From Galbibacter pacificus (GTDB lineage Bacteria; Bacteroidota; Bacteroidia; Flavobacteriales; Flavobacteriaceae): DNA of 64,000 nucleotides. The position numbers were made by a program, and so were the translations under genes. The notes beneath the pieces are model-generated. The model was not told the DNA's origin, did not search any database, and saw nothing but the letters and a program-made list of their open reading frames with translations. Shown here one piece after another: positions 13,967 through 22,328 of this stretch (positions are counted from its first letter, which is position 1; every line of letters begins with the position of its first letter). The stretch is taken from contig NZ_JAQSVC010000007.1 in assembly GCF_029603165.1 (NCBI RefSeq), forward strand, positions 186,001 to 250,000, written 5' to 3'.

Positions 13967-15568
13967 ATGGCAGCAGGAAATTTATCACCACGTCAAAAGA
14001 TGATTAACCTTATGTATTTGGTTTTCATTGCAATGTTGGCGTTGAATATGAGTAAAGAGGTTTTGTCGGCTTTCGGACTTTTAAACGAGAAGCTTACAAA
14101 CTTTAATAATAAAGCCACTGAACGTAATGCAGCTGCTTTTGCAGATTTAAAATTGAAATCTACAGAGCAACCCGAAAAATACGAAGCATTATTTGGTGAA
14201 GTGGAAAAGATCAAACAGACATCGGGGAGTTTCAACAGTTACCTGGACAGCTTAAAATCTCAAATGGTAGCCAATATAGCCCCCGAAGACCGAAGCGATT
14301 ATGAAGTAATGGACAAATCCGACTTTTTGGATCAGGCATTTTTTCAAGGAGATCGTTATTCCGCAGAAGGACAGAAATTTGTAAACTATATCGATAATTT
14401 TAGAACCAGTACTATTGAAACCATCAATAAAATACCTGATTCTTTAATGAAACCTTCTCAAAAAGCCAGTTTGGTGGGGTCTATAGAAACCCGCTTTTTT
14501 ACCGGCGATGAGAATGGAAAGGTCGAAAACAGAGATGGACGTCCTGTGGAATGGTTAAATTATCATTACGAAGGGTTTCCTTTAGTAGCATCTTTAACCA
14601 AAGTTACTTTGTTGCAATCTGACATTAAGACGACGCAAGACGAAATCTTAAAGGCAATGTTGCAGGGGCAAATGACTTCCGACCTTTCAATGACCAATTA
14701 CACCACCTTGTTGGAGCAACCAAAATCTGCTTACTATCAAGGTGAAAAATTTGACGGGTCCATCGTTCTTGGAAGAAAAGACGCTACCACACGTCCAAAC
14801 GAAGTTAAGTTGAAGCTGGACGGAAGGGACCTAAAGGAAAATGAAGATTACGTAATAGAAGACGGTCGCGTTAAACTTACGGTAAATGCCGGAAGTGCCG
14901 GAGACCATACTATTGAAGGTAATTTGATATTTAAGCAAGAAGGTGAAGAAATCGAGGTGCCCGTTTCGCAAAAATTTGCAACCATTACAAAGCCAAATGC
15001 GGCAGTAATATCGGCAGATAAAATGAACGTGGTATACCGTGGGGTTTCCAACCCGATTACCATATCAATTCCTGGTATTCCCGATAATAAAGTAAGTGCT
15101 TCCGCTTCTGGATTGAAGAAAGTTTCAGGCAGCAAATATGCAATGAACCCGGGAACCGGAAGAACGGTAACCATTTCTGCTAGCGGAACCTTGCCAGATG
15201 GACAACGTGTGTCTTCATCGTCAGAATTTAGGATTAAAGATATTCCACGTCCTTCAGGAACGGTAAGAGGGGAGTACGGCGAAATAAAAATGCCTAGAAA
15301 CAACCTTGAAATATCAACCGTTGGAGCTATGCTGGAAGATTTCGACTTCGACTTAAACTTGGCCATCAGCGGATTCAAATTTAAAGTTCCAGGACAGCCA
15401 ACCGTTCAGGTAAGAGGTAATAAACTGGATGGCCGTGCCAAGTCTGCACTAAAAAGAGCCGGAAGGGGCGAAGCCGTACAGATTTTTGATATTGAAGCTT
15501 ACATTACCAATAACAGGTCGTATAAACTTAAAAAAGTTTCTCCTGTTGTTGTGGAGCTAACAAATTAA
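13967..15568 (+). CDS. gldM: Gliding motility/type IX secretion motor protein GldM
   Basis: GldM is the single-pass partner of GldL whose periplasmic domains span to the GldK/N ring. It has 533 residues. A short cytosolic start (MAAGNLSPRQKMIN) is followed by one transmembrane helix, LMYLVFIAMLALNM, at about residues 15-30. After it come a helical D1 region (30-220) and three beta-domains (D2-D4, about 225-530), including YQGEKFDGSIVLGRKD and RGVSNPITISIPGI. The length and order are as in known GldM proteins. It is separated from gldL by 46 bases and from gldN by 15. Confidence 0.97.
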   Translation: MAAGNLSPRQKMINLMYLVFIAMLALNMSKEVLSAFGLLNEKLTNFNNKATERNAAAFADLKLKSTEQPEKYEALFGEVEKIKQTSGSFNSYLDSLKSQMVANIAPEDRSDYEVMDKSDFLDQAFFQGDRYSAEGQKFVNYIDNFRTSTIETINKIPDSLMKPSQKASLVGSIETRFFTGDENGKVENRDGRPVEWLNYHYEGFPLVASLTKVTLLQSDIKTTQDEILKAMLQGQMTSDLSMTNYTTLLEQPKSAYYQGEKFDGSIVLGRKDATTRPNEVKLKLDGRDLKENEDYVIEDGRVKLTVNAGSAGDHTIEGNLIFKQEGEEIEVPVSQKFATITKPNAAVISADKMNVVYRGVSNPITISIPGIPDNKVSASASGLKKVSGSKYAMNPGTGRTVTISASGTLPDGQRVSSSSEFRIKDIPRPSGTVRGEYGEIKMPRNNLEISTVGAMLEDFDFDLNLAISGFKFKVPGQPTVQVRGNKLDGRAKSALKRAGRGEAVQIFDIEAYITNNRSYKLKKVSPVVVELTN

Positions 15569-15583
15569 TAAAAGATAAATGTT

Positions 15584-16474
15584 ATGAATTGGAAGCGCAT
15601 TTTATTAACTATAACAACAGTTTTAGTTTCTGCTTTAAGTTTTGGCCAGGCAAATTTGCTTAATGCAAAAACGCCGGACGAAGTAGGAGTGAAAACAGAA
15701 GACCAAATCGAGGCCGATAACGATGAGCCTCTACCATATGGATACGTAGACGACAGGGACATTCTCTGGTCTAAAACCGTATGGGAAACAATCGACTTGG
15801 ACGAACGTATTAATTTCCCGTTCTATTATCCTATAGATACCATAGATATCGGGAGCGACCGTAGGTCTTTGTACGATGTTCTTATCAAGAATATTAAAAA
15901 CGGAAACTTACAAGATGTATATGTAGATTCTTATTTTACCGAAAAGCGTAAATTTGGTGATTTAAGTGCTACCTTACAAAAAGTAGATACAACCGATCTT
16001 GGATACGAACAATTAAATGCCGGGGAGCAAGTTTCTGCTGAATACATCAACAGAAGAAACCTTACCGCTGCCGATATCCAAGAATGGCGTATAAAAGGTG
16101 TTTGGTATTTTGATAAGCGTCAAGGAGAACTTAAATACCGTTTGTTGGGGTTGGCTCCGGTAGCACCGGATGTTAACTTTATAGACAGTGAAGATTCTGA
16201 CCTTGTTGAGCTGTTTTGGGTATGGTTTCCTAGTGCCAGAGATATCCTACACGAAGCAAAAGCTTTTAACAACCAAAATTCGGCCAGGCCTATTTCGTTC
16301 GATCAATTGTTGAATGCCAGACGTTTTAACGCGGTAATCTACAAAGAGGAAAACGTACAAGGCGATAGGTCTGTTAAAGATTACATTCCAGATAATGCCA
16401 TGTTCCAACTCTTGGAGTCGCAACGATTAGAAGAGAAAATAAGGGACAAGGAACAGGATATGTGGAGTTACTAA
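15584..16474 (+). CDS. gldN: Gliding motility/type IX secretion protein GldN
   Basis: GldN (PorN) pairs with GldK to build the periplasmic ring of type IX secretion. It has 296 residues, with a signal peptide MNWKRILLTITTVLVSALSF and likely cleavage near GQA. Family features seen: VDDRDILWSKTVWETIDLDE, ERINFPFYYPID, a central IKGVWYFDKRQGELKYR, and LFWVWFPSARDILHEAKAFN. It is last in the gldKLMN cluster and is followed by a strong terminator 40 bases later. Only one gldN is present here; no gldO duplicate was seen. Confidence 0.97.
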   Translation: MNWKRILLTITTVLVSALSFGQANLLNAKTPDEVGVKTEDQIEADNDEPLPYGYVDDRDILWSKTVWETIDLDERINFPFYYPIDTIDIGSDRRSLYDVLIKNIKNGNLQDVYVDSYFTEKRKFGDLSATLQKVDTTDLGYEQLNAGEQVSAEYINRRNLTAADIQEWRIKGVWYFDKRQGELKYRLLGLAPVAPDVNFIDSEDSDLVELFWVWFPSARDILHEAKAFNNQNSARPISFDQLLNARRFNAVIYKEENVQGDRSVKDYIPDNAMFQLLESQRLEEKIRDKEQDMWSY

Positions 16475-20635: not shown

Positions 20636-21403
20636 CTACTTATTTTTTAAATATTGAATTTCGCTTTTAAGCTCTGTAATGGATTGTTGTATTTGCGAAA
20701 GTGCAATATTGCCTGCATCCCCGTCCAGTTCCATGCTTATTTTACTTTTTACTTCCCATAATTCCTGAATGTCAAAAGTGTTGATGGTAATTGGCGGGTA
20801 TTCGGGGTTTAATGAAATTAAGGATAAGTGCTCGTTGTTGTCGTGCTTTTGTACTTTTTTCACGAGTACGCTGTCGTGCAGGACCACTACGCATATAGCG
20901 TGATTGTTGAGCATGTTTACATTTTCTACCGATTTTCCCAAAACCCATTCTTTGGGGTGCAGACCGGGCAACATACTGTCGCCTTCTACCTGAAAGCCCC
21001 TATAGGTAGCATTTCTGTACTCGGGGAGGGGAAGGGTGAAAGCGGGGAGCTCTTCGTACCAGTCCAGATCCTGAATGTTGTGCGGATAACCCGCGGCGGC
21101 TTTTACATTTACCAAGACAATACCATCGTTGTTTTCGGGGGTGACGGTAAGTATTTTTGGCGCGGTATTGACCGTTGTACTTAATTCTTTTTGGTTGCTT
21201 TTTCCATAGAGCCATAAGGGGTTTACCTTAAACTGTTCCATGAGCTCGACTACAATGCTGCCGGAGATTTTTGATTTGCCCCTTTCGATATCGGCCGTAG
21301 AACTTTTAATGCCGAGGGTTTCTGCAAAGGTTTGCTGGGTAAAATTATATTTTTCCCTTATTTCTTTAAAGCGTGTTACTTCTATAGGAAGTTTAGATTT
21401 CAT
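20636..21403 (-). CDS. HTH/S24 self-cleaving transcriptional repressor (LexA/CI-like)
   Basis: A 255-residue phage-repressor-like regulator. Start at 21403 (MKSKLPIEVTRFKEIREKYN). An XRE helix-turn-helix (about 10-65) is joined to an S24 peptidase domain. The autocleavage bond Ala104-Gly105 (KAAAGY), nucleophile Ser143 (GDSMLPGL) and general-base Lys182 (LVKKV) are all present, so damage-induced self-cleavage is plausible. A predicted coiled tail (QQSITELKSEIQYLKNK) ends the protein. It is divergent from a TIGR03915-type DNA-metabolism gene. Three copies of a GGAA-TAW-TTCC operator lie in the 226-base gap, so it probably represses itself and that gene. Confidence 0.92.
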   Translation of the reverse strand: MKSKLPIEVTRFKEIREKYNFTQQTFAETLGIKSSTADIERGKSKISGSIVVELMEQFKVNPLWLYGKSNQKELSTTVNTAPKILTVTPENNDGIVLVNVKAAAGYPHNIQDLDWYEELPAFTLPLPEYRNATYRGFQVEGDSMLPGLHPKEWVLGKSVENVNMLNNHAICVVVLHDSVLVKKVQKHDNNEHLSLISLNPEYPPITINTFDIQELWEVKSKISMELDGDAGNIALSQIQQSITELKSEIQYLKNK

Positions 21404-21454
21404 GTTTGTATGATGAATTAAATACAATATGCAATGTAAATATATAAAAAATTT

Positions 21455-21467
21455 AGGAATAATTCCT
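21455..21467. promoter_or_regulatory. Operator copy 1 (repressor-proximal)
   Basis: AGGAATAATTCCT, a perfect odd palindrome. It lies 10 bases upstream of a minus-strand -7-like box TATATTTA (21444 to 21437) of the S24 repressor gene, inside the promoter spacer. Confidence 0.75.
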
Positions 21468-21473
21468 TTTTAT

Positions 21474-21494
21474 TGGAATAATTCCATATATTTG
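21474..21494 (+). promoter_or_regulatory. Operator copy 2 abutting a -7 box
   Basis: TGGAATAATTCCA (21474-21486) is a perfect palindrome centred 19 bp from copy 1. It directly abuts TATATTTG (21487-21494), an exact -7 consensus for the rightward gene. Occupancy would block that promoter. Confidence 0.78.
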
Positions 21495-21558
21495 AATCGG
21501 TTATTGGTAATAACATTGGCTAATTTAAAGAAAGATATGAAGAATGCATTATTAAATA

Positions 21559-21573
21559 TTGGAATATTTCCAA
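21559..21573. promoter_or_regulatory. Operator copy 3 in the leader
   Basis: TTGGAA-TAT-TTCCAA with perfect 6-bp arms, about 60 bases downstream of the -7 box and 57 bases before the ATG at 21630. It shares the GGAA-N3-TTCC core with copies 1 and 2. Confidence 0.7.
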
Positions 21574-21629
21574 AAACAGGAGCGTCAATTTTTACCAAGT
21601 TTTTTAAAAGAACTAAAAGAAAAACAACT

Positions 21630-22328
21630 ATGAATACAATTTTAATTTACGATGGCAGTTTTATTGGGTTTTTGTCGGCCGTTTACAAAGTTTTTGATGA
21701 AAACATAAAAGAAGTTTCCATAGTGAAACCCAAGCATTATGTTCCCGATATGTTTTCGGAAACCGTAAACGTATCTTCTTCTGAAATATATTCCAAGCGG
21801 GTCTGGAAATCTTTGGAGGTGAAGCTAACAAAACATGGTGCGAATGAATTGTATAAAGCTTTTTTAAGCGAAATTAAGGGTACGGAAGATGCTTTGTTGA
21901 AATATATTGTGCATGTATATGCTACAGAATCTTTTAGGTATACCGATATGCCCGATGCCAATACACTTCGGGTCTCCCAAGTTGCCAGAATGGTAGACAG
22001 GGAATTGGGGCATATTAAAAATTTTTTGGTTTTTAAAACAACAAGAACCGGTATGGAAGTGGCTACCATAAATTCTAATTTTAATATGTTACCGCTTATC
22101 GGGAATTATTTTAAAAGAAAATACCCCAATAAAAAATGGCTTATTTACGACCAGCGCAGAAACTACGGCCTGTATTTTAATACCAAAGAGATTGACCGCG
22201 TGCACTTGTCCATAGACGACCAATTGAAAGTCTTTGAGGAAAACAATGCAATGTTCTATGTTAATTTACAAAATAAGCCATTTTATGGGCTTGCCAAAAG
22301 CAACAATAAAGCCGAGATAAATTGTTGA
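21630..22328 (+). CDS. TIGR03915-type probable DNA metabolism protein (DUF4130)
   Basis: A 232-residue protein of the family that usually accompanies a radical-SAM protein (TIGR03916) or is fused to a uracil-DNA glycosylase-like domain. Start chosen at 21630 because the family begins MxTILIYDGSFxGFLSAVY; in-frame ATGs at 21429 and 21537 lie upstream, and the operator would then be inside the gene. Seen: IYDGSFIGFLSAVYKVF, then RVSQVARMVDRELGHIKNFL, ATINSNFNMLPLIGNYFKRK, WLIYDQRRNYGLYF. The usual radical-SAM partner is not next to it. Its biochemical role is unknown; base repair or modification is inferred from family context. Confidence 0.82.
   Translation: MNTILIYDGSFIGFLSAVYKVFDENIKEVSIVKPKHYVPDMFSETVNVSSSEIYSKRVWKSLEVKLTKHGANELYKAFLSEIKGTEDALLKYIVHVYATESFRYTDMPDANTLRVSQVARMVDRELGHIKNFLVFKTTRTGMEVATINSNFNMLPLIGNYFKRKYPNKKWLIYDQRRNYGLYFNTKEIDRVHLSIDDQLKVFEENNAMFYVNLQNKPFYGLAKSNNKAEINC

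Follow-up and report, generated by a model that had tools for sequence, protein, structure and literature searches.

The window, i.e., the whole stretch of 64,000 nucleotides that was analysed, holds a divergent pair of genes encoding a LexA-type repressor and an orphan TIGR03915/DUF4130 protein, the latter lacking its radical-SAM partner TIGR03916. We consider it fairly probable that this locus is the lexA corner of the Bacteroidetes SOS regulon and that its DUF4130 protein is an SOS-induced, partner-independent, degenerate RecJ/Cdc45-like protein. The observations behind this explanation are the operators, the gene architecture, the co-occurrence of the two families, residue conservation, selection and a predicted fold.

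The lexA-DUF4130 locus

The features of the locus are the following.

20636..21403, minus strand: S24-family repressor with a CI-type HTH, 255 aa, matching the non-canonical LexA of the GGA-N5-TCC group (Pfam, residues, copy number)
21456..21466, no strand: operator 1, GGAATAATTCC, exact match
21475..21485, no strand: operator 2, GGAATAATTCC, exact match, abutting the rightward -7 box
21487..21494, plus strand: rightward-promoter -7 box TATATTTG, exact match, one base after operator 2
21537..21629, plus strand: probable 31-codon N-terminal extension of the DUF4130 gene (open frame), with operator 3 in codons 9-12
21561..21571, no strand: operator 3, GGAATATTTCC, exact match
21630..22328, plus strand: orphan TIGR03915/DUF4130 protein, 232 aa core, without the canonical C-terminal tail (TIGR03915 135 bits, DUF4130 71.4 bits)

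An earlier note on this DNA had proposed an SOS-type S24 repressor with Ala104-Gly105, Ser143 and Lys182 beside a TIGR03915 gene, and both identifications held. The repressor matches Pfam Peptidase_S24 (E 2.2e-13), HTH_19 (E 4.9e-9) and HTH_3 (E 4.1e-8), and the bond and both residues are present at these positions, with the same motifs in 12 of 12 aligned rows; its neighbour exceeds the TIGR03915 cut-off of 112.25 bits, the match covering 1-197 of 243 profile positions. Control of this gene through a multi-site operator, which had also been suggested, is supported. By profile match and alignment, the C-terminal tail (profile 198-243, HVPKRYWKYLxEK) is absent from the window protein.

The DUF4130 gene starts at 21537 or 21630 and ends at 22328. 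From the ATG at 21537 the frame is open in all seven genus members, the other two frames being stopped in all seven, and the extension measures 87 or 93 nt (29-31 codons) across the genus; L120, L123 and L141, three orphans from the genera closest to this one, do not have it. Because substitutions at its three codon positions (98, 94, 115) are just slightly more frequent at the third, coding is likely rather than proven. The third site, previously placed in a leader, is exact, but it probably lies within coding sequence.

Elsewhere in the window, two consecutive ORFs (13967-16474) resemble the gliding/secretion genes gldM and gldN.

Operators and promoter

The three copies of GGAA-N3-TTCC noticed earlier in the divergent spacer are exact at 21456, 21475 and 21561. 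In the window, GGAANNNTTCC occurs five times against a shuffle mean of 1.90 (sd 1.42; five were reached by 2 of 100 shuffles), and three of these five copies fall inside 116 bp; GGA-N5-TCC occurs 14 times, and when sites are placed uniformly at random, 0.3% of trials contain a triple within 116 bp. The Bacteroidetes -7 box has the consensus TAnnTTTG. That copy 2 abuts an exact -7 box was confirmed, the composite GGA-N5-TCC-N-TAnnTTTG (21475-21494) occurring once in the window with a shuffle mean of 0.01. This operator/-7 module points toward DUF4130 in 39 of the 41 orphan loci (spacer one base in 37, none in 2; L142 and L146 are without it), no further copy was found in 330 kb of the same loci, and it also stands upstream of the radical-SAM gene PA0069 (6/6) and of dinB-dnaE (5/5 loci looked at). 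For the leftward promoter proposed at copy 1, no exact -7 box adjoins an operator toward LexA in any of the 41 orphan loci; a near match, TATATTTA, is apparent by eye.

Site centres in the genus of the window are stepped by 19 bp (operators 1 and 2) and then by 84-86 bp (operators 2 and 3) in seven of seven genomes, compared with steps of 22-23 and 18 bp in 27 of 34 orphan loci outside the genus. The longer step corresponds to about eight helical turns, which would suit looping.

The repressor and its regulon

The repressor is single copy in its own genome and 72-80% identical to the copies in six other genus genomes; to two more distant S24 homologs, in G003 and G006, its identity is 23%. It matches, as a homolog by sequence, the published Bacteroidetes non-canonical LexA of the GGA-N5-TCC group, since it combines an S24 peptidase and a CI-type HTH with the Ala-Gly scissile bond and the Ser-Lys dyad, and since GGA-N5-TCC occurs upstream of further SOS genes as well as in the control region of the repressor itself. 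According to the passages available from Sanchez-Osuna et al. 2021 (PMC8565304), EMSA and mutagenesis established the motif for a LexA homolog, and that regulator and other predicted targets, but not recA, were mitomycin-induced; binding and induction are thus published there, and cleavage was inferred from conserved residues.

A search of the genome for further GGAATAWTTCC, as had been recommended, returned 12 sites outside the locus. Nine lie inside ORFs of at least 90 aa and were set aside as targets; the remaining three are in L009 (PA0069), L010 and L003. At the PA0069 start codon (G000:C15:351605-352726; L009, L209) there is a second operator pair with a 19-bp step, its second operator overlapping the codon, and the encoded radical-SAM protein (P0003) scores 467.6 bits against a cut-off of 360. 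The same 19-bp-step pair precedes PA0069 in all six genus genomes that have the gene, own genome included; the seventh, G001, gave no PA0069 match at E 1e-40. In G004 and G001, operator pairs stepped by 19 and 22 bp also stand upstream of a Y-family polymerase gene, after which comes a dnaE-type ORF; the names dinB and dnaE are based partly on reading of the N-termini.

As a side observation, a single GGAAATATTCC (L010 site 1501) is located about 90 bp before a secreted-protein-like ORF of the own genome, either a possible target or chance. The second Y-family polymerase was rejected as a target, its loci in five of the seven genus genomes (L080-L084) being without CTAA-N5-TTAG and GGA-N5-TCC, save one GGAAAGCTTCC in L080.

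In 43 family genomes LexA occurs without a TIGR03915 match, and in the 40 lexA neighbourhoods fetched from them no DUF4130 match was found. The divergent neighbours of lexA there, as read from translations, are dinB-dnaE (L178, L192, L193), an SRAP-like ORF (L191), uvrA (L187, L189, L194, and L185, the last without a site) or unrelated small ORFs. The earlier note had regarded the switch as dedicated, i.e., as a repressor serving a single repair gene, and the tight divergent linkage in seven of seven genus genomes and the three-site operator would agree with this. However, conserved operator pairs before PA0069 (6/6) and dinB-dnaE (two genus genomes), together with the other lexA neighbours, indicate that the switch is not dedicated, and the repressor is a single-copy homolog of what PMC8565304, in the passages available, describes as a regulon-wide SOS repressor; the dedicated reading is already contradicted by this sequence evidence and is very improbable.

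Absence of the radical-SAM partner

The claim that the radical-SAM partner is missing next door was not only borne out but extends to the whole genome (4.04 Mb, 21 contigs, rated 100% complete), in which TIGR03916 has no match, and a partner located elsewhere in it was accordingly rejected. A sample of 60 genomes, with the own one among them, contained TIGR03915 in 19 cases and TIGR03916 in 12; in 397 family genomes, again with the own one, the numbers were 138 and 101, respectively. The absence of the radical-SAM gene was judged on draft genomes, most of them 99-100% complete and a few below 90%. The best TIGR03915 match reaches at least 249 bits in 101 genomes, and these coincide exactly with the 101 genomes that have TIGR03916. 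The remaining TIGR03915 genomes, 37 in number and all without TIGR03916, comprise 36 with diverged orphans (tail lost or eroded) and G160, whose only match is a tail fragment and which was excluded from the orphan counts. Orphan scores form a gradient between 218 and 75 bits. The profile alignment extends, in eroded form, to position 243 in G032 and G259, and it ends between 212 and 237 in several others. Both the partnered pair and an orphan are present in G004 and, in the first sample, G006; no GGA-N5-TCC was found in the 500 bp before their partnered rSAM-DUF4130 operons (L044, L045), though the LexA-linked orphan is kept.

Tail-only fragments of partnered-type DUF4130, with no radical-SAM gene nearby, were seen in L148 (G400) and L147 (G160) and are apparently decayed remnants.

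LexA is divergently adjacent to DUF4130 in 37 of 37 orphan loci (that of G004 included). Among the 101 partnered loci, 58 show this arrangement, 16 are unlinked and 27 have no LexA of this kind; the difference has p 7e-8, or 1e-3 when the genomes lacking this LexA are excluded, with kinship not corrected. In those 27 genomes no LexA homolog passed E 1e-40, so linkage is undefined there. With four further genus members, the divergent arrangement was found in all 41 orphan loci fetched. In the relatives examined, a DUF4130 protein without partner thus survives only beside lexA, which suggests a DNA-damage job of its own.

The orphan state arose or changed more than once. Four changes were counted on the DUF4130 tree, five on a core-only tree in which long branches join among the most diverged orphans (three of the five forced by supported branches), and five on the LexA tree, which holds only 6 partnered rows of 58 linked loci; the DUF4130 trees contain the 43 partnered sequences that were fetched. 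Partnered and orphan species occur within one genus in g19, g69 and g167, and the own genus g1 (Galbibacter/Joostella, with Robertkochia as the next orphan relatives) also has partnered copies. Flanking genes agree between partnered and orphan loci (L151/L120, L149/L127, L149/L043, L150/L129, L046/L043), and the fetched stretches of G017 and G024 are collinear, with 89% identity for LexA, 88% for the next gene and 54% for DUF4130. No remnant of the radical-SAM gene was found in 40 orphan loci. The trees are silent on direction; since the tail is eroded to different degrees, with G032 and G259 still aligning over it, loss of the partner is favoured over gain. An alternative for some lineages, shown to be possible by the double carriers G004 and G006, is descent from an ancient lexA-DUF4130 paralog.

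Conservation and selection

Seventy alignment columns are at least 95% conserved in the 43 partnered sequences; 23 of them stay at least 80% conserved in the 41 orphans (among them Y7, D8, G13, F42, S80, P155, W170, D174 and R177), and 47 do not (among them H127, R128, M129, R134, D150, R164, D167, Q168 and tail columns), so that the reduced residue set tracks with the partner. This bears on the possibility that the co-regulated PA0069 protein has replaced TIGR03916 as the radical-SAM enzyme of DUF4130 in this genus. PA0069 carries the 19-bp operator pair and the same -7 module in six of six genus genomes that have it, an arrangement by which the two proteins would be made together; however, Galbibacter marinus (G001) keeps the orphan with no PA0069 match at E 1e-40, and the rSAM-tracking tail and basic motif are lost or eroded in the orphans (PA0069 was sought within the genus). 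Such a swap of partners seems improbable to us.

The dN/dS of orphan DUF4130 is 0.09-0.15 (6 of 11 pairs with measurable dS), compared with 0.02-0.06 for LexA (7 of 11 pairs) and 0.02-0.05 for partnered DUF4130 (2 of 8 pairs), all rough values because most dS are near saturation; in the five pairs measurable for both, the orphan value is 2.5-8 fold above that of LexA. On this sequence evidence orphan DUF4130 is under relaxed purifying selection. It might accordingly be a passenger, a decaying leftover of rSAM loss that persists through the overlap of its promoter with the lexA control region, and with this would agree the elevated dN/dS, the graded scores, the finding of orphans only where a promoter is shared with lexA, and the 40 lexA neighbourhoods without DUF4130. 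We consider this rather unlikely, for reading frames of at least 205 aa are kept in 41 of 41 loci, the dN/dS is still 0.09-0.15, and between the window and G. orientalis (G005), its nearest relative, pN is not higher for DUF4130 (0.126) than for LexA (0.131). Furthermore, the module toward DUF4130 is kept in 39 of 41 loci, and G400 has an intact lexA-linked orphan but only a tail fragment of the partnered-type copy, which lies away from lexA.

Predicted fold

AlphaFold models are closest to DHH/DHHA1 proteins (RecJ, Cdc45; orphan model pLDDT 89.7), where we interpret the replisome chains among the fold matches as Cdc45; the Foldseek list also holds unrelated entries, e.g., GDP-fucose synthase (E 0.026). 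No DHH motif occurs in the 232 residues, to which Pfam assigns only DUF4130 and a weak EABR match, and no sequence-level match to DHH proteins was obtained by HMMER (first 25 of 45 families), PDB sequence search or hhalign to a single E. coli RecJ. The link to DHH proteins is one of predicted fold only.

Proposed explanation

From the above we infer binding, cleavage and induction through LexA, a change toward loss rather than gain of the radical-SAM gene, and a biochemical role. LexA dimers would bind the intergenic GGA-N5-TCC sites, the operator fused to the -7 box blocking the rightward promoter and the remaining operators strengthening repression and providing autoregulation. Upon damage, RecA on single-stranded DNA would trigger LexA self-cleavage at Ala104-Gly105, and DUF4130 would then be made along with new LexA, the PA0069 radical-SAM protein and, in some relatives, the dinB-dnaE operon. 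Originally, DUF4130 would have been encoded in a lexA / rSAM-DUF4130 locus as partner of TIGR03916, a radical-SAM protein. Repeated loss of the rSAM gene presumably left DUF4130 at lexA with its core residues kept, and the rSAM-tracking tail and basic motif were shed or eroded. The kept core would be a compact, probably non-hydrolytic DHH-DHHA1 (RecJ/Cdc45-like) protein that works without the rSAM protein and binds nucleotides or single strands at damaged forks. A bolder version, which we put forward tentatively as somewhat doubtful, is that DUF4130 is a bacterial Cdc45-like degenerate RecJ fold that repeatedly became an independent SOS effector by shedding the rSAM protein, and that it is kept only beside lexA since its dosage must follow the repressor (e.g., for feedback on LexA cleavage or RecA filaments).

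Both the regulator and the TIGR03915 family have been described before. In the literature searched, no description was found of a recurrent lexA-bound partnerless DUF4130 with eroded residues and a RecJ-like predicted fold, and nothing matched on the Galbibacter SOS response or on UdgX with radical SAM. The family carries no annotation beyond "putative DNA repair protein". Its orphans are a natural experiment that separates partner-dependent from partner-independent residues, and its candidate fold suggests chemistry or strand binding of the RecJ/Cdc45 type. An SOS promoter architecture is defined by the fusion of an operator with the Bacteroidetes -7 box, and the recurring lexA-DUF4130 pair suggests an unnamed SOS function.

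Comparison with known systems

With the DHH/DHHA1 superfamily (RecJ, Cdc45, NrnA, PAP phosphatase) the protein may share a fold, the resemblance being predicted over residues 1-206; unlike its members, it has no DHH motif, and the RecJ stretch to which it was matched is longer by about 130 residues. TIGR03915 proteins can be fused to UDG-like domains. The window protein resembles the TIGR03915/TIGR03916 pair in a DUF4130 core above the TIGR03915 cut-off and in its SOS context, and differs from it in the missing TIGR03916 of its genome, the N-terminal extension seen in this genus, and the canonical tail and R128, M129, R134, D150, D167 and Q168, which are lost or reduced among orphans. A link between DUF4130, UDG and SplB is reported in the part of PMC3765255 that was available.

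The published LexA regulon (PMC8565304) includes a two-gene COG1573-COG4277 operon; the passages available mention neither a DUF4130 without its partner nor a -7 box register, a term search for the -7 box giving nothing, and, unlike that regulon, the two Y-family polymerase genes of the window genome are without a site. Common to both, as far as those passages extend, are the S24 domain, the CI-type HTH (PF01381), the Ala-Gly bond, the Ser-Lys dyad, GGA-N5-TCC in the own control region, and SplB-type radical-SAM and dinB/dnaE targets.
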